Shown here in pieces: positions 517 through 63,029 of a stretch of 64,000 bases of DNA; positions within the stretch are counted from its first letter, which is position 1, and each line of letters begins with the position of its first letter. The stretch comes from Schistocephalus solidus (lineage: Eukaryota > Platyhelminthes > Cestoda > Diphyllobothriidea > Diphyllobothriidae). The position numbers and the translations under genes were made by a program. The stretch lies in NCBI GenBank assembly GCA_017591395.1, contig WEDG01000235.1, forward strand, positions 248,001 to 312,000. The letters run 5' to 3'. The notes below the pieces were generated by a model. The model was not told where the DNA came from. It saw nothing but the letters and a program-made list of their open reading frames with translations, and did not search any database.

Positions 517-1916
517 TTGTCATCCAGAAGCCTCACAATAACCGAAGAACGAATACTTTCTAAAGGAATGAAATACAATCTTTCTGATTCAAAATACCTA
601 GATTTCCTTGCGAATTTGGAGTCTATCATTTCAGCAGAATCTTTTACAGACGAGGAACGTTTCACAATACGGAATAGCACTGTACATGCCTTAAGGAACA
701 GAAATCCTTTTTCAACCCTATCACATGAAGAGAAGAAGGCATTAAAAACTTTAAAACCGATAAAAACATCGTCATCCTACCTGCGGACAAAGGAGGTTCA
801 ACAGCCATTTTGAACAAGGTTGACTACGATGAGAAGATGCTGTCGTTGTTACAAGATAGTTCAACCTATAAACCTCTTAACGCGGATCCTACAAAAACGC
901 AGAATTCAACTATTGAAAGGGTTTTAAAGCGTCTTACAGGGAAGAAGCAAATATCAGAAGATATTGCCAAGTCCCTAAGACAAACTGAACCGACCATAGC
1001 TAAAATCTACGGATTACCTAAGGTTCACAAAGCCGAAGTACCATTACGACCGATAGTATCATTGATTGGTGCACCCAATTATAAAATTTCGAAGTGGCTA
1101 TTCCACAAGTTACATCCACTGACAAGGGATTGTGAAACTTCTATCGAAAACTCTGTACAATTTCTGAACAAATTGCGAGGACTCCAGATTGCAGAAGATG
1201 AAATAATGGTATCTTTCGATGTTGTCTCTCTTTTCACATCCATACCAATAGATTTGGCAAGGCAATACACAGAAGAATTACTGCAGTCTTATGACATGGA
1301 TGTTTCTGTATCTGCCTTACTGGAACTCTTGGATCTATGTCTGGAAACGAATTTTTCCTTCTCACAAGGATACTACAAACAGCTAAAGGGAGCCCCTATG
1401 GGTTCACCCATCTCCGGCTTCTTGGCTGAAGTAACTATGCAAAAATTAGAAGCTACAGCCTTACCACTAGTTAACCCCAAATTATGGGTTCGCTACGTGG
1501 ATGACACGTTTGTTATCGTTAAAAAGGATCAACTAGAAAGGCTGCATAGCATTATAAACTCAACGGTACCAGGTATCACCTTCACGCTCGAAAGAGAAAT
1601 TGACAGTAAACTCCCGTTTCTTGACGTCCTCGTACAGCGAAAGACTGACGGGACATTTCAAACATCGGTTTACCGCAAGGAAGCTTATGCGGAAATTATC
1701 CTGCATTACCAGAGCAACCACCCTATTGCTCACAAGCGGAGTACTGTTAACAGCCTACTCAATCGAGCTAAAACGCACTGTTCTGATAATGAACTCTACC
1801 AAAACGAACTCAGTTATTTATTCAAACTATTTTGCAGAAATGGTTATCCAAGAGAATTTATACGTCGATGCATGAGACGACAGAAGTTAAAAGAAAAGGA
1901 AAAGACAAGGAACTAG
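517..1916 (+). pseudogene. PLE reverse transcriptase, frameshifted
   Basis: The first 98 codons (517-813) give the N-terminal part. The frame then shifts near 750 into a 368-codon frame whose upstream in-frame reading includes ILPADKGGSTA, a motif typical of PLE RT. Visible RT blocks are KIYGLPKVHK, LRPIVS, VSFDVVSLFTSIP (catalytic Asp region), GAPMGSPISGFLAE, and the catalytic YVDD at about 1495-1506. After it come a LPFLDVLV block and the RNGYPREFI linker motif. The catalytic residues are intact; only frameshifts disable this copy. Confidence 0.85.
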
Positions 1917-2420
1917 ATTGTTCCGGTCAAGCGCCCAAATCAAAGAACTGGCGAACACTTCCGTACATCAAGAACGTGTCCGAACTCGTTGAAAGACACC
2001 TGCGGAAACATCAAATCCAAGTGGCGCACAAACCAACGACTACACTTCGAAACCAGCTTGTACACCCTAAGGATAGGGTTGGCTATTTAGATAAAAAAGA
2101 AGTCGTTTACAAGATACCATGTAACAGCTGCAATGCGGTGTACTGTGGTCAGACAGGAAAATCAGCCTCCACGCGCATACACGAACATCAATTGGCAGTA
2201 AGGAGGCGAGACCACTTGTCTCAAGTTGCCATGCACACGCTAGAAACAGGACACAAATTTGCCTGGGACAAAAACCCGCATTGTTGCCTCCCTGTCCATC
2301 TAAGAAAGGCCGAGAATTTTTAGAGGCCGTTTTCTCAGATGACTCATGCATCAACCGACGCATCGAATTGGACCATGTGTACGACTACCTGAAAGAAAGC
2401 GGGAAGAAACGACAGCCAAT
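1832..2420 (+). pseudogene. PLE GIY-YIG endonuclease domain, frameshifted
   Basis: The frame contains the linker WRTLPYIKNVSE, then VVYKIPCNSCNAVYCGQTGK, the GIY-YIG core in the PLE form with a Cys pair between the two halves. The conserved Arg/His region TRIHEHQLAVRR follows. The frame stops at 2321-2323, but another frame continues with FLEAVFSDDSCINRR, the usual C-terminal part with the conserved Glu and Asn, so a shift lies near 2305-2320. The domain normally nicks target DNA for insertion. Confidence 0.8.
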
Positions 2421-2649: not shown

Positions 2650-2666
2650 TATATATATATATATAT
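2650..2666. repeat. (TA)n microsatellite
   Basis: Alternating T and A over 17 bases directly before SINE1 copy 1; similar TA runs adjoin other SINE1 copies. Confidence 0.9.
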
Positions 2667-2885
2667 CCCAGGTGTGCCACACTTGGGATTGGGTATGACT
2701 GGCTGATGACGGCTAATAAGCCAGAAATGGCCATTCCGGTCTCCCTTGTCTTTGTCGGTTCCATTCAATCATATGCTACACGTCGCTATGCGACCGCCTG
2801 CGAGGGCTCTAGTCTGAGCTCCAGGGCACAACGGAACATGCATGTTCCTTAAGCAGATCGGTGAGCCCCACACTATCATATATAT
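2667..2885 (+). mobile_element. SINE1 copy 1, headless, with intact hammerhead core
   Basis: Shares its whole body with copies at 8.6, 27.9, 49.7, 51.8, 52.2 and 53.0 kb. The shared core includes GCTGATGACGGCTAATAAGC and CTCCCTTGTCTTTGTCGG. This copy lacks the tRNA-like head seen in the 51.8 kb copy. It belongs to the subfamily whose 3' part contains the perfect palindrome GGAACATGCATGTTCC (2833-2848). A TA run precedes it and another short one follows at ~2878. Confidence 0.85.
2697..2741 (+). ncRNA. Hammerhead ribozyme candidate in SINE1 copy 1
   Basis: Seen in sequence: stem I GACTGG (2697-2702) pairs with CCGGTC (2736-2741), six pairs including one G-U. The core is CTGATGA (2703-2709). 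Stem II is GGCT/AGCC with loop AATA (2711-2722), and GAAA is at 2724-2727. A 2-bp stem III with loop GGCC is closed by A2727 and T2734. The cleavage triplet is ATT, with predicted cut after 2735. This is the type I arrangement with a very short stem III, as in known retroelement hammerheads. One weakness is that the 10.1/11.1 position is C against A instead of the usual G-C pair, so activity may be low. Confidence 0.6.
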
Positions 2886-2945
2886 ATGTATTTATCGAAG
2901 GAGAAGGGAAGGCGTTCTCTGGGACCAGATGTTTATTCATTCGAC

Positions 2946-3848: not shown

Positions 3849-3943
3849 AGATCGAGTTCAGAGTCTTTGTGAAATCCTCAATTTTTTTTGTCCTCATCAG
3901 TCTGGCAAAAATTGAGGGTTTCACAAAGAATCTGAACTTGATC
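3849..3943. repeat. Short inverted duplication inside PLE-2
   Basis: About 38 bases starting GATCGAGTTCAGAG (3849-3888) reappear in reverse complement at about 3907-3943 with few differences, separated by ~18 bases. This could be an inverted duplication made during faulty reverse transcription. Confidence 0.65.
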
Positions 3944-4229
3944 TTCCAATAATTTTCCTTGTATGTCGGCTGTAGCCAATTAAAAAGGCTTTTAGAGCGC
4001 CTCGCTGGACTTGCGGCGATGGTGCAGTCGGGTGTGCGTCGGTCTTGCGAGGTTGAGTTCTCCTGTTCGGTCCTGCCTGCCTCGCGAGGCGCTTTGCACT
4101 TCAATTTCAGTATTAAGCCATGATTTTTTATCCTATATACGGGTCTGAAAGCCTTTTGGTCATTCTGCTATTATATAGTGACTTTATAAGTGGGATATGT
4201 TCGTCCTAAGACGGTGATAGAGAAATTCG

Positions 4230-8539: not shown

Positions 8540-8705
8540 TTACCGAGAAACACAAGGGAGACTGGAATGGCCATTTCTGGCTTATCAGCCTTAATCAGCC
8601 AACCATACTCAACCCCAGGTGTTGCGGCATCCGAGGCTCAAAGTCCCAACCTGCTGCTTAGAATTTTAACGCTCTACCCACCATGCCACAAGCTCTTTGT
8701 CTTTT
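8540..8705 (-). mobile_element. SINE1 copy 2 with decayed tRNA-like head
   Basis: On the minus strand this reads from a tRNA-like head (GTGGGTAGAGCGTT, then GACTTTGAGCCTC as a worn B box) into the SINE1 body. Its ribozyme region (8560-8604) keeps pairing stem I strands GGTTGG/CCAGTC, but the core is CTGATTA, with G8 lost, so it should be dead. Confidence 0.75.
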
Positions 8706-25400: not shown

Positions 25401-28400
25401 TCCCTTAGCGGTACAACGGCGGGAGGAGAAATGCGGGTTTCGTTAGTAGTTGATGATTTGTTTTCAGACAGGTTCCCCTTCGGCTGGTCAGAGTGAAGAG
25501 GCAACCGGGTTGACTCGGGGATGCGAGGATTTGAGGGTGAAACTACCGGTTTATTTTGGCCACTGCCTTCACTGGTAGATACTGGGGGCCGTTTTTTGAT
25601 TTTCATCTCCGGATTTTCGTCCTCGACCTCAATGAGACGAACCCCCTCCTTCATCTTGACAGCCGTGTCGCTGCCATCTGCACTGTTGTGATCCTGCTTC
25701 AAATGAACTGCATCCACCACCAAGGGTTTTCTAGAGTTCTGCGGATCAACCTCTGCCTGCGACGGTCGACGTTTCGCGGACTTGTTTCCACTGGCACCTT
25801 TGGGTTGTAAGTGAGAAGGTGAGGTCACGTTTACCATCGGGGGAAATTGTGAAGGTTGTACTGCAGGCGGGAGAAACTGTAGATGCAGTTGTTGTGGTGG
25901 CTGGTTGCAGTTTTACTTTGGCTGATTCCGAAGTCTCAAGAGAAACGGGTGGTTTGGCCGGTATGGCTGACTGCTCGCCGCTGTCAACTACCGTTAGGCG
26001 AACATCCTCGTCTACTTCCTTCATCTTGGCGACCGTTTTGCTGCCGTCAGCAGTCCGACTGTCCTGACTGAGGTGCATGGCATCAACAATAGAGGGCTTC
26101 TTGGGGACTGCAGTCTGTGTTGTCGTGGTGTTGGGCAACGACATTCCCGGGCTTGATGTGGTATTAACCAAAAAAGATGTAAATGTATCAGGTTTGGCAA
26201 GAGGCTGCAATGAACTTTGATTACTTTCAGGCGTCAATTCAGTGGCCTGTAATTTAGTGGCAGAAGCTACGTTAGTTAACGGCGGTCTGCTCTTGCTTGC
26301 GATGGGTGTGGGAGAAAACGATGGAACTATGGATACTTTGATGGAGGACTGCAACGGACCTTGACTGTTCTCGGAAGTTGGTTCTGGGTTCTTTTGCTGC
26401 TCTTGACTTCCCATTGCCAATGGACGGATAGATGTTATCGACGTTGAAGTTAAACTGGACCCGCTCATGGGAGATCGCGACGTGGGCGAGTGTGGCGGAG
26501 TCTTTGTGAACATCTCCAACGTCGTTTTCTTACTTTCATTAGAAGCTGAAGAGGAAATGGCAGAGTTCGGCACCCGAGGCAAGGGAGCAGTCACCAACAC
26601 CGGCACATTAACATCAGTCAGATTATGAAGATTCGTGCTCGTGTCATCGCCACTGTTGTTAAGTAACGATGGCTGGAATGTGATGGGGTCCAGCTGGAGT
26701 TCTGCTAACCTTCGAGCCCTATGCAAACTGCGGTTGATGGGATGATTTGCAACACTTGAGGCCTTTGTCGTGACTAAAGATGGTTTGTCCACCAAAAATA
26801 TATTTGGACCGCAAGTGAGTGGTATCATCATTATAGGCGCGAGGGCATAACCAAGAAGACTGCAGAAGACTAGAATCTGATGAATTTGACGCTTGCGCCG
26901 TCCACCACGTGAAATGACATACGTTAGGCAACCTGTCAAAAAAGAGGCGTGACAGACTCTAATATTAAAGCATAAATGAATAAAGAAATAAGAATATAAA
27001 ATGGGACGCGGGGTTAGTTCAAAGACCGAGAATGCGGGACAAGGTAACACAACAGAAGCACCGACTAATGGCATTAGAAAAGGCTTTAAGTCCACCCGGA
27101 AAAACCAAAAACGACCCGGAGTGGTTCCAGATCCAAGGCAGGTTTTACATTTGGAAGAATAAGCATAGCATAATTTATGTCACGAATTCATTGGCTTATA
27201 CAAAACTCCTCAAAGAAACTTGGGACCCTTCGACAGAACATTCTATTTAGACGGCCCAACTTTAAATTGTGGTACCCAATGGACTCCAAAGTGATAAATC
27301 AACAAGCGAAAAAGCTGCAGAAACTGACTCAGCCTGAAGTTGACGGGATAGAACTTTCACTCTTTGATTAATGTCATCTAGAAAACTACTGTCAAACTAA
27401 CTGACGTCCACTGAAAACAAAAATTAAGGCAAAGTAAACGTTCATTATTTCTGATTCAGAATAAAATCACATGCTTTCGGTCTATAACGTAAACTTGATG
27501 AAACATAACGGTATGCTCGAACTTTTCTGGGTTTAAATTAGTCGCTAAACTTAAATAAACATTGGGGCAAAGTAGAATTAACGACAAAGGCAAGTTGGAT
27601 AGTCGGATAGTTCTTAAACGAGTTTTTAATAAGATTTGTGGAAGAAATTTCTATCTCCAAGATGGCTGACACATTGCTTAGGGGTTTCGAACACCTCAAG
27701 CGTCTGTTATTAATGAATGCATGATAGAAAATGTACAGATTGAAATTACAGACTAAAACAAGGGGACCAGAATGGTCATTTCTATTCAAATAGATGCATC
27801 CGTTTTTGCGACCCCTGAGATTCGAATTCACGACGTGTTGGGCTCAATGGTTAGGACATATCAACGGTGAACGCCCCGGCACTATCCGATCACGATGGAC
27901 AGGACGAGTCCGGGGGTAAATGGGTAGGGCGTTGGACTTTTAACCAATAGATTGAGCTCGAGACTCCGTGGTCTTTTATGGCTGGCTGATGACGGCTAAT
28001 AAGCCATTCTAATCCCCCTCGTCTTCATTGGTAATGCTATTATGCTTATATCACTAGCCACTGTGCGACTGTTGGTGGAGCTCGAAAGTGAGCCGCAAGA
28101 CACTAAGGGAAGAGTGAGTCCCGTAACGCGATCTGTGAGCGCCCGTCTGAGCGCCCGTTCTCCTGTTACACCGTTGGATCTGGTAGAACCAAAAATGCAC
28201 TTTCCCTAATTTCTAATTTATGAGGAAACCCGATCCGGCACCTGTCACCTTCACCTTTTACTATCTCTAATGCTGGGCTCGAGATCGTGTCCGGCACATC
28301 GGACAAATAAGGTTCTCGGTTCGACGATGGAATTCACTTCTCACAACCAGGCCTTTTCAGACGCCTAAGAATGTCTGTCGATTATACAATTACAGGGAAA

Positions 28401-49715: not shown

Positions 49716-49930
49716 TGGTCATCCACACTTGGGATTGGGTATGACTGGATGATGACAGCTAATAAGCCAGAAATGGCCATTCCGGTCTCCCTTGTCTTTG
49801 TCGGTTCCAATTTATAAACTTATGCTACACGTCGTTATGTGACCACCTGCAAGGGCTCTAAGGTGAGCTCCAGGGCACAACGAACATACATGTTCCTTAA
49901 TCAGATAGATGAGGCGCACACTATCATCAT
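49716..49930 (+). mobile_element. SINE1 copy 4, headless
   Basis: Starts near CACACTTGGGATTGGG and ends near CACACTATCATC, as in copy 1 (same subfamily). The ribozyme region 49743-49787 keeps stem I GACTGG/CCGGTC, but the core is ATGATGA (C3 lost). It lies directly against the truncated Gypsy integrase. Confidence 0.8.
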
Positions 49931-49944
49931 ATCCCCGATCGCAA

Positions 49945-51570: not shown

Positions 51571-51776
51571 AAACACTATTGCATTTGAAGTTAATTAAAA
51601 TTCCGCAAAACTAACAGGGAAACAGCAACTGTTTTATTCATAGGTGCACACTAGGAACAAAAATAATCATAGGTAGCTTGGAAATACTTGTTATTTCCAT
51701 CCGTTATATTTCCTTTCCTACAACTGGTCAAATATATATATATATATATGCAGAATAATATGACCAAAAAAGATAA

Positions 51777-51916
51777 GGAAGACTGGAATGGCCATTTCTG
51801 GCTTAGTAGCCGTCATCAGTCAGCCATACCCAACCCTAGGCGCTGCGGCACCCGAGGCTCGAACTCGCGACCTTGTTGGGCAGAAGTCCAACGCTCTACC
51901 CACTGCGCCACGGCTA
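51777..51916 (-). mobile_element. SINE1 copy 5 with best-preserved tRNA-like head
   Basis: On the minus strand: GGCGCAGTGGGTAGAGCGTT (A box), a five-pair anticodon stem GTTGG/CCAAC, and GCGAGTTCGAGCCTCG (B box and T-arm). About 35 nt later comes the hammerhead region. The order head, ribozyme, body shows the SINE layout clearly. The plus-strand counterpart at 51911-51985 is the mirrored arm and lacks the CTGATGA half. Confidence 0.8.
51781..51825 (-). ncRNA. Hammerhead ribozyme candidate in SINE1 copy 5
   Basis: CTGATGA (51819-51813), stem II GGCT/AGCC with loop ACTA, GAAA, TGGCCA, TT, then CCAGTC (51786-51781). Stem I strand GGCTGA pairs at five of six positions, with an A-C mismatch next to the core. 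Confidence 0.5.
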
Positions 51917-52124
51917 ATAAGCCAGAAATGGCCATTTCAGTCTCCCTTGTCATTGTCGGTCATCTTATTCTGCATATATATATATAAATATTTGACCAGT
52001 GGTAGGAAATGAAATATAACGGATGGAAATAACAAATATTTCCAAGCTACCTATGGTTATTTTTGTTCCTAGTGTGCACCTATGAATAAAACAGTTGCTG
52101 TTTCCCTGTTAGTTTTGCATTAGA

Positions 52125-52364
52125 CTTCTGCCCAACAAGGGCGCGAGCACGAGCCTCGGGCGCCGCAGCGCCTGGGGTTGGGTATGGCTGGCTGACGACG
52201 GCTTATAAGCCAGAAATGGCCATTCTAGTCTCCCTTGTCTTTGTCGGTCATCTTATTCTGCCTATATCCTTAGCTGCCTTACGACTGATGGCCGGGCTTG
52301 AGAGTTAGCCCCAAGGCACAACGGGACGAGTGAGTCCTGTAACCGATCGGTGAGCGCCCAACTA

Positions 52365-52370
<6 letters not shown>
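52125..52370 (+). mobile_element. SINE1 copy 6, full body, partial head
   Basis: Starts in the head (GACTTCTGCCCAACAAGG) and has a worn B box (GCACGAGCCTCGGG), then an intact body. It ends CCGATCGGTGAGCGCCC with a (TA)n tail. It belongs to the subfamily with GGGACGAGTGAGTCCTGTAA in the 3' part. It starts seven bases after the palindrome ends. Confidence 0.85.
52186..52230 (+). ncRNA. Hammerhead ribozyme candidate in SINE1 copy 6
   Basis: Stem I GGCTGG (52186-52191) with CTAGTC (52225-52230), six pairs counting G-U. The core CTGACGA fits CUGANGA because position 7 is free. Stem II is GGCT/AGCC with a TATA loop, then GAAA, TGGCCA, and cleavage triplet ATT. Stem I differs from copy 1 at two positions, yet pairing is kept through wobble. 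The 10.1/11.1 C-A mismatch is shared. Confidence 0.55.

Positions 52371-52404
<34 letters not shown>
52367..52404. repeat. (TA)n tail of SINE1 copy 6
   Basis: 38 bases of alternating A and T immediately after the SINE 3' end. Confidence 0.9.
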
Positions 52405-52892: not shown

Positions 52893-53066
52893 TAATAGTG
52901 TGTGGCTCACCGATCTGCTTAAGGAACATGTATGTTCCGTTGTGCCCTGGAGCTCACATAAGAGCCCTCGGAGGCGGTTGCATAGCGACGTTTAGATTAT
53001 GATGAAGTGGAACCGACAAAGACAAGGGAGACCGGAATGGCCATTTCTGGCTTATTAGCCGTCATC
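52893..53066 (-). mobile_element. SINE1 copy 7, headless
   Basis: Minus-strand body with GGCTAATAAGCCAGAAATGG and the 3' palindrome region GGAACATACATGTTCC. The ribozyme core is ATGATGA (C3 lost, as in copy 4) and its 5' stem I strand is missing, so the copy is truncated there. Confidence 0.75.
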
Positions 53067-53082
53067 ATGTGCGGTCGGGAAT

Positions 53083-53155
53083 AGTGTGCGGCTCACCGAT
53101 CTGCTTAAGGAACATGTATGTTCCGTTGTTCCCTGGAACTCACATGAAAGCCCTC
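53083..53155 (-). mobile_element. SINE1 3' fragment
   Basis: Repeats the last ~70 bases of the family (GTGAGCCGCACAC to CGAGGGCTTTCATGTGAG on the minus strand), duplicating the end of copy 7. Confidence 0.65.
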
Positions 53156-54044
53156 GCTTGGTAACCCATTCCGTGTTCAAAATACTTCATTTGATGGAGT
53201 ACCTTGCTTTATTGAAGTCGTATGTTCAACGAGGAGGCCCTTTAGTGTGGAAACACGTAAGTTCCCTTCTATCACCTGCTACATTTTGCCTTACCTTGCC
53301 ACTAGGGCAAGATTTAGCGATAGCTCTGCATGATGTGGCTATCTGGCGTGGCTACGGCGTGGCATTCAACGCATTCACCCCCTTATGGCGTTGACTTTGT
53401 AGCCATGAGTACACTCTGTTAAGCTCTCAAATATCCTAGTAACCTAACATGTACCACATCATACCTTTGCGCATTAATAAGCGTAAACTGCAATGATAAG
53501 CAGTCCGTATAGAGATTTTGAAGCAATTTTCTGGGTTAAAATAAATCTTAATCGGCAGATACATAATGTTGCCATTCGATGGATGCCATGCCAGAGTGAC
53601 TGTGATAATCCGTGAGGCACTTTGGACGAAAATTGTGTTCCAAATTAATATATCTGTTTTGTATCCAAGGTATAGTATTTTATTCCTACTTTTGCGTCCT
53701 TTGAGTTGCCCTGCTGCACAGGGCGTGTACAGACTTCCAATGTATATTTGAAGGTTGTGCATCCATCCACCGCATTTAAAAGTGTTTTATGTCCTTGCCC
53801 CTAAAGACGTGGAGTTGTGGATCAAAACCAGATCCAGAAGTATGAAAACCTTCCACTTTAATTGAGCACTCGAAAATGAGGAAAAGTTATCAGCCGATGG
53901 AAGGGGGGGAGGAAAAAGATCAAATTGAAGGGTGCAAATAATTTATAATAGTGAAAAACAAAGAAAATAAGAAAAAGGTGCAAACAATTTATGCAAATAA
54001 ATGGGAATCGCGTGAAGTTTTACGTTAAATTAATCAGCCACAGT
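53156..54044. other. Gene-free stretch
   Basis: The minus-strand frame at 53762-53436 (108 codons) has no recognisable domain or splice support; left unassigned. Confidence 0.4.
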
Positions 54045-62849: not shown

Positions 62850-63029
62850 TCCTTTGACACACTTGTGAAAAACTCGACGGCCTCAGTGAGATTCAAACTC
62901 ACGCAAACAAGGCGAAGGCTTTAGTACAACCAACGCTCTAGCCAACTGAGCTACGAGGCCCCATCGGGAGCCGTAAGTTTAATCACACTTGGGTCAAGTT
63001 ACCCACCCAACCTACTGCAACGTATGGAA
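62850..63029 (-). mobile_element. SINE2 copy with complete tRNA-like head
   Basis: On the minus strand: TTCCATACGTTGCAGTAGG, TTGACCCAAGTG, then a tRNA-like part (62960-62879), then TTTTTCACAAGTGTGTCAAA. It corresponds block by block to 38461-38638. It lies inside the presumed intron of the unidentified gene, same strand. Confidence 0.65.
62879..62960 (-). tRNA. tRNA-like head of SINE2 (probably not a working tRNA gene)
   Basis: Acceptor stem GGCCTCG/TGAGGCC (seven pairs with one G-U), D-arm GCTC/GAGC, and T-arm GTGAG/CTCAC with TTTGAAT loop. There is a long variable region, as in class II tRNAs (Ser or Leu type). The anticodon stem has only four pairs (GGTT/AGCC). The flanks match SINE2 at 38.46 kb, so a SINE head is more likely than a gene. 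Confidence 0.4.

Follow-up and report, generated by a model that had tools for sequence, protein, structure and literature searches.

A tandem repeat of retrozyme-like anatomy with a hammerhead-like core and a tRNA-like head in Schistocephalus solidus

Organization of the repeat and its hammerhead-like core

The window analyzed here is a stretch of 64,000 nucleotides of the Schistocephalus solidus genome (assembly GCA_017591395.1, contig WEDG01000235.1, positions 248,001 to 312,000 of the forward strand), and window positions are counted from its first base. Read directly, the segment at 2667–2885 consists of (TA)n, CCCAGGTGTGCCACACTTGGG, a hammerhead-like core, and a tail some 135 nt long, which terminates in CACACTATCAT and is followed by (AT)n. 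We refer to this segment as copy 1 of family B; its parts are listed in Table 1 together with the related copies in the window and a neighboring mobile element.

Copy 1 has the layout of a type I hammerhead—three paired stems, with stem I open—and contains every conserved base (C3U4G5A6N7G8A9, G12A13A14, A15.1-U16.1, and H17). The inner part of stem I is formed by GACTGG (2697–2702) and CCGGTC (2736–2741) with 6/6 pairs, the core strands are CTGATGA (2703–2709), C (2710), A (2723), and GAAA (2724–2727), and stem II, GGCT-AATA-AGCC (2711–2722), has 4/4 pairs beyond 10.1/11.1. TGGCCA (2728–2733) and TT (2734–2735) make up the helix III region, in which a helix of 2 bp carries a palindromic loop; the family B palindrome AUGGCCAU makes pairing between two copies possible. 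An outer stem I helix, GGG (2691–2693) with CCC (2743–2745), was overlooked in the preliminary description of this locus. Copy 1 does not have the Watson-Crick 10.1–11.1 pair that is expected of a type I hammerhead. Cleavage is predicted between 2735 and 2736, after the triplet AUU, with U at 2735. The ATG within CTGATGA opens a frame of 48 codons (2706–2852), which runs through the core and into the tail.

Table 1. Positions of family B, its relatives, and a neighboring element in the window
Feature	Position	Strand	Remarks
Presumed Penelope-like element copy	810..2323	+	Reverse transcriptase 810–1916 (RVT_1, E 2.5e-9), next frame 1832–2323
(TA)n, 5' junction of copy 1	2650..2666	.	Direct reading
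Family B body monomer (copy 1), 213 nt	2667..2879	+	(TA)n on either flank; same body recurs in tandem arrays elsewhere
Core plus outer stem I helix GGG/CCC, internal loop TAT/T	2691..2745	+	Arrangement common to hammerhead families A and C
Type I hammerhead-like core	2697..2741	+	Direct reading; descriptor and shuffles
Stem-loop II of copy 1	2710..2723	+	Outermost C2710 (10.1) and A2723 (11.1) form a C.A mismatch
Helix III and loop, ATGGCCAT	2727..2734	+	8-nt palindrome; two copies could pair (dimeric hammerhead)
(AT)n, 3' junction of copy 1	2880..2887	.	Direct reading
Type-2 copy	8541..8622	-	Core base G8 lost (CTGATTA); tRNA-like 5' flank by eye
Fragment: core and 3' flank	27748..27783	-	
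Type-2 copy	27977..28034	+	Internal deletion removes GAAA and most of helix III
Copy 2, family B	49723..49932	+	Core base C3 lost (ATGATGA)
Type-2 copy with tRNA-like head	51761..51917	-	Stem I 5/6 pairs; head by A and B boxes only
Partial type-2 copy	51910..51962	+	Head to head with the copy at 51761..51917
Type-2 copy	52124..52384	+	Truncated tRNA-like head, intact core 52186–52230, full tail, (AT)n; left end by eye
Copy 3	52894..53160	-	5' part of core missing (52894–53067)

Specificity of the motif and related copies in the window

The core was described by a descriptor comprising CTGANGA, GAA plus A15.1, stem II, a short helix III, H17, and stem I, with a mismatch allowed at 10.1/11.1. 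There are two matches to the full descriptor in the window (2703 and 52192), both in the repeat family of copy 1, and among 300 dinucleotide-shuffled windows there are none with a stem I of at least 5 bp and four with at least 4 bp, a figure that is somewhat favorable because the descriptor was written after the motif had been seen. The hammerhead layout proposed for 2697–2741 in the preliminary description is upheld. A similar scan of the window and 53 genome loci, mostly chosen for family B, recovers only family B with its type-2 relatives and, besides these, a single further tandem family with a hammerhead.

Using a profile of the core, nine stretches are found in the window in place of the seven reported earlier, several of them truncated or decayed. 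The full set of core features is kept only by 2697–2741 and 52186–52230, the same two that had been picked out as intact. In copy 3 the second tail piece (53081–53160) precedes 52894–53067 on its own strand. The type-2 copies at 52124, 51761, 8541, and 27977 form an older-looking set with the same core and with other tRNA-like heads, recognized by eye. For the copy near 51.8 kb, A-box-like and B-box-like sequences can indeed be seen by eye where a tRNA-like head had been described, but neither ARAGORN (bacterial setting) nor the Rfam tRNA model finds a match there. The segment at 51600–52130 is a large inverted repeat in which, by eye, two type-2 copies stand head to head and the outer flanks are inverted too.

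A 303-nt tandem unit with a tRNA-like head

The window's own 604-Mb assembly was searched with copy 1 as the query. The best 40 of 633 first-look candidates yielded 83 matches, many of which lie about 303 bases apart (C5196, C800, C2575, and others). The array unit is 303 nt, with a 213-nt body alternating with a 91-nt linker, and family B is present in the genome as lone bodies, as short multimers, and as long tandem arrays. By direct reading, the array linker contains an A box (TGGCTCAATGGTAGAGCG) and a B box (GGTTCGAATCC). Ten linkers in loci L027 and L048 score 24.2–28.6 bits with the Rfam tRNA model (RF00005), slightly under its 29-bit cut-off; one head in L067 reaches 28.8 bits against the same cut-off of 29, and the heads of older copies score 18.9–21.9 bits. 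The linker at 2033–2120 of L027 is not listed as a tRNA by the Rfam model.

Copy 1 was considered as a tRNA-headed element and this was ruled out, since its sequence starts within the T arm and the units of the arrays have the head between them. Since the head lies in the linkers between bodies, copy 1 is a body without its head. Of the earlier designation as a tRNA-headed SINE, the presence of a hammerhead-like core in a tRNA-related repeat stands, but the repeat is a tandem, retrozyme-like unit of 303 nt and the head is absent from copy 1. Judged by its sequence, the element has the anatomy of a retrozyme or of an Sm-alpha-type element and not that of a plain SINE. Retrozymes are recognized as tandem units of 150–450 bp with a type I hammerhead in each, and the 303-nt unit with its hammerhead-like core falls within this description. 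When a single unit is folded from cut site to cut site, its predicted energy is −114.3 kcal/mol, 5.3 standard deviations below that of shuffled sequences, with 0/100 shuffles as stable.

Conservation and predicted folding of the core

The majority sequence of the highly similar arrays keeps all core bases. Among 185 profile matches, leaving out 16 without an ungapped core, C.A at 10.1/11.1 is found in 138/147 family B cores, 11/16 type-2 cores, and 5/6 that are undecided. Natural copies with U-A at this position also occur, for instance in L065. The preliminary description would have abandoned the hammerhead if C.A were fixed in the family and abolished its activity; the mismatch is indeed the family norm, but abolished activity is only hypothetical. 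The available part of one study (PMC3088659) describes 10.1–11.1 as the most conserved pair apart from 15.1–16.1, and reports natural hammerheads with U.U at this position, a mispair giving more cleavage than any other. As U.U is the best of the mispairs in that account, C.A would be worse.

Covariation of the stems across copies, to which the preliminary description looked for support, is not significant (60–118/500 shuffles) in the 23 mostly decayed cores examined, which were drawn from 169 ungapped cores and comprise 20 old copies (14 distinct type-2 and 6 undecided) and 3 hand-picked members of family B. Hammerhead pairs that have changed in single copies are mostly broken, as expected of neutral decay, and are still paired in 11/37 cells in family B and 9/20 in type 2. 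A rival hairpin, CTGGCT/AGCCAG, is conserved as well as the hammerhead when measured by percentage paired. Variation in the core and in the flanks, respectively, is 0.021 and 0.071 for family B (34 distinct ungapped cores) and 0.043 and 0.14 for type 2 (10 distinct ungapped cores), the numbers being small in both sets.

In all five copies tested, two of which are without a core base, the predicted minimum-energy fold is one other than the hammerhead, which lies 5.5 to 20.9 kcal/mol higher; similarly, 0/7 stretches from six copies folded into a hammerhead. The Rfam hammerhead model gives no match to family B, which weighs little because it misses a canonical family of the same genome (family A, below) as well. 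We conclude that the family B core is very likely of hammerhead ancestry, and that present-day self-cleavage is a putative activity, which may perhaps be weak.

Families A and C, two other tandem hammerhead-like families

Family A has a 232-bp tandem unit with a canonical type I core, a GUC triplet, a palindromic helix III loop, and U.U at 10.1/11.1. It is located at L027:650–1500, in L062–L065, and at G000:C191:216708–225061, and forms long homogeneous arrays, with at least 36 consecutive matches on C191 and 100%-identical copies on many contigs. Family C (L066:1140–1600, L067, and L068) has a 367-bp tandem unit, a hammerhead-like core into which one base is inserted (CTGAATGA), and A.C at 10.1/11.1. 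Where their ends were read, families A (L062, L064, and L065) and C (L067 and L068) also have (AT)n.

Families A, B, and C have a common layout of a 6-bp inner stem I, an internal loop, a 3-bp outer stem, and a short helix III. The inner stem I is paired 6/6 in each although both of its sides differ at several pairs, a comparison of three families whose homology is putative. A Watson-Crick pair at 10.1–11.1 is absent from all three (U.U in A, C.A in B, and A.C in C). The genome is a natural test set, with three tandem hammerhead-like families that are all without the usual 10.1–11.1 pair and one of which has a tRNA-like promoter; if the C.A variant cleaves, the notion of a working hammerhead would be widened.

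Insertion ends and Penelope-like elements

Insertion ends were mapped in 37 loci on 59 merged segments with an identity of at least 90%. The unit contains only two ATAT sites (105–108 and 215–218), and 29 of the 51 readable 3' ends lie there: at position 218, 17 have (AT)n next and 4 are without a clear run, and at position 108 there are 8, each followed by (AT)n. The other 22 comprise 8 at position 97, with no direct TA, and 14 elsewhere, 4 of which precede TA. At the 5' side (56 readable ends), 19 are at 301–303, with 15 adjoining (TA)n, and 37 are elsewhere, with 5 adjoining TA; the pile-up at 301–303 is inflated because the search query held that junction, and arrays found via internal copies begin elsewhere. 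Where two arrays have ends within 10 bases of each other, nine pairs are head to head and one is tail to tail. The ATAT sites at the 3' ends and the head-to-head pairs fit target-primed reverse transcription that starts on either side of a break in a (TA)n tract. The end pattern as a whole suggests that (TA)n primes reverse transcription, for which the abundant Penelope-like elements may be responsible. With its (TA)n tracts, two dominant 3' sites, and head-to-head arrays, this signature is precise enough to be compared with the purified Penelope enzyme.

One such element lies at 810–2323 (Table 1). We take it to be Penelope-like, a name given without a library match, and presume that the frame at 1832–2323, for which there is no Pfam match, is its GIY-YIG part. 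The element is a candidate for the type of machinery that mobilizes family B. Penelope-like elements are extremely common in the genome: the reverse transcriptase of the window has 23,151 first-look candidates, of which 111 were scored. At L059 and L060 (G000:C2010:54629–61296), two of them with long open frames stand in tandem about 2.57 kb apart.

Derivation of the family B element from the 5' end of Penelope, an idea raised by the in-frame ATG of CTGATGA, is unsupported. Comparison of the unit with three Penelope loci (L059–L061) gives only an inserted unit fragment in L061 and short, weak, chance-like matches, and when 13 loci, including four Penelope matches, are scanned for hammerheads with relaxed criteria, only family B is recovered and none beside the Penelope copies. 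The one purified Penelope protein studied favors DNA rich in AT, cleaves and extends both strands, and begins at an internal position in the RNA; in vitro, priming proceeds without homology to the cut DNA and the element's own hammerhead is dispensable (PMC11167929). The link between Penelope and family B is circumstantial.

Relationship to known elements

The nearest described element to family B in the portions of the literature available is Sm-alpha of Schistosoma mansoni (W36.2), which the preliminary description had aptly named as a parallel. The accessible accounts describe Sm-alpha as related to tRNA-Gln (PMC2770079) and as both dispersed and arranged in 332–335-bp tandem arrays, with its cleavage reported as proven (PMC8490949). 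Compared by these descriptions, Sm-alpha and Sj-alpha share with family B a SINE-like, apparently tRNA-related nature, a type I hammerhead layout, and dispersed as well as tandem copies; family B differs in its 303-bp unit, another tRNA-like head, the AUU triplet, and C.A at 10.1/11.1, and its cleavage is predicted only.

The wider class is that of the metazoan non-LTR retrozymes (Cervera and de la Peña 2020). These are described, in the sections available, as repeats that carry type I hammerheads in tandem units of about 300 bp, that form anything from dimers to large multimers, and whose RNA circles are said to fold stably (PMC7229834); dimeric hammerheads are reported among them (PMC7229834, PMC7761336). 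Part of a further article (PMC7761336) states that the repeats have no conserved motif that would reveal a partner transposon, and treats their mover as open, with Penelope-like elements as candidates. Family A fits this class closely as so described, and family B resembles it in its tandem units of about 300 bp, type I hammerhead-like core, multimers, and stable fold. Family B is set apart by its tRNA-like head and by its (TA)n insertion signature, a tRNA-like promoter being absent from these retrozyme descriptions.

As two kinds of element of this general nature were already known from the same partial accounts—Sm-alpha (PMC2770079, PMC8490949) and the non-LTR retrozymes (PMC7229834)—the earlier suggestion of a distinct retroposon type was too strong. 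What is new with respect to the retrozyme texts available is the combination of the tRNA-like head with the (TA)n insertion grammar, and, with respect to the literature in the portions available, a genome with three hammerhead-like families without the 10.1–11.1 pair. Among the titles and abstracts listed from the open-licence literature, none was recognized as family B, and six core pieces of 14–15 letters matched no paper; three patterns had 0 matches in viral contigs. Penelope-like elements with minimal hammerheads share with family B an AT-rich target and a tandem arrangement (PMC11167929) and occupy the same genome; family B differs in encoding no enzyme, in possessing a helix III, and in showing no similarity to the three Penelope loci beyond the inserted fragment and weak matches noted above.

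Proposed life cycle and alternative explanations

The core, the unit, the arrays, the tRNA-like linker, the (TA)n junctions, the two dominant 3' sites, and the head-to-head pairs are present in the sequence. We consider it probable that the segment at 2667–2885 is one body monomer and belongs to a retrozyme or Sm-alpha kind of non-autonomous retroelement, and that a cycle of hammerhead cleavage, RNA circles, and reverse transcription is the most likely mode of its spread. Three parts would make up the full 303-nt unit, namely a Pol III promoter of tRNA-like sequence, a domain with the type I hammerhead, and a structured tail. Tandem units would be transcribed from the tRNA-like promoters, as the A and B boxes imply, and the hammerhead, probably acting as a dimer via its palindromic helix III, would cut the multimers to 303-nt monomers; the C.A at 10.1/11.1 may weaken this cutting in family B. 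By analogy with the retrozyme literature, the monomers would be circularized by a host ligase. A reverse transcriptase that prefers AT-rich sites, perhaps Penelope-like, could then open (TA)n tracts and prime with a TA end at either of the template's two AUAU sites. Arrays would result from repeated runs round the circle, and head-to-head arrays from priming at both ends of the DNA.

The main competitor to catalysis is a domain that descends from a hammerhead and is no longer catalytic, with SINE-like or satellite-like spread and a core kept by recent descent or as a hairpin. That C.A is the family norm speaks for this, as do the insignificant covariation, the mostly broken state of changed pairs, the equal conservation of the CTGGCT/AGCCAG hairpin, the energies that favor other folds, and the ability of Penelope to insert in vitro without need of its own hammerhead (PMC11167929). 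The majority sequence of highly similar arrays nevertheless keeps all core bases, and families A and C are likewise without the Watson-Crick 10.1–11.1 pair (U.U and A.C), natural U.U being compatible with cleavage in the available part of PMC3088659; we regard loss of catalysis as possible, if somewhat doubtful. Chance resemblance, by which a repeat with several short palindromes happens to fit the hammerhead consensus, is very improbable. GGCT occurs twice and either occurrence is able to pair with the same AGCC, TGGCCA is itself a palindrome, and covariation is not significant, all of which would suit such an accident; the 0/300 shuffled windows with a stem I of at least 5 bp, the tandem unit of retrozyme size, and the three-part stem I shared with two other hammerhead-like families argue against it.

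The arrays and (TA)n junctions might also have arisen at the DNA level, through unequal exchange or the capture of circular DNA at fragile TA tracts, and not by reverse transcription of an RNA circle. Short homology to (TA)n at the junctions is consistent with such events, and long homogeneous arrays can be grown by DNA recombination. We nevertheless consider this origin rather unlikely, as the ends have the asymmetry of target-primed reverse transcription, with 3' ends at two ATAT sites and 37/56 5' ends scattered, the other 19 (301–303) being query-biased. Within the RNA-circle cycle that we favor, a more elaborate version would give the tRNA-like head two jobs, as a Pol III promoter in the DNA and, in the circular RNA, as a brake on reverse transcriptase at a methylated A58 in the T loop. 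Penelope-type enzymes would prime at the two AUAU sites of the hammerhead-made circle from both ends of a cut (TA)n tract, which would account for the head-to-head arrays. Insertions starting exactly at T-loop residue 59/60 beside (TA)n would in that case represent cDNAs that ended at m1A58, a reading of the head as a cDNA stop that draws on HIV reverse transcriptase, which, in the available part of PMC13191261, stops before m1A58 of its tRNA. We think this version improbable; were it true, retrozymes like family B would be tRNA-headed parasites of Penelope elements.

Other features of the window

Two features elsewhere in the window were noted. A long near-perfect inverted repeat at 3852–3948 scores 48.3 bits to MIR476, for which the gathering threshold is 80, and is probably an inverted-repeat element rather than a miRNA. 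A tRNA gene or pseudogene at 62878–62960 is called as tRNA-Ser with the odd anticodon ACT (42.2 bits).
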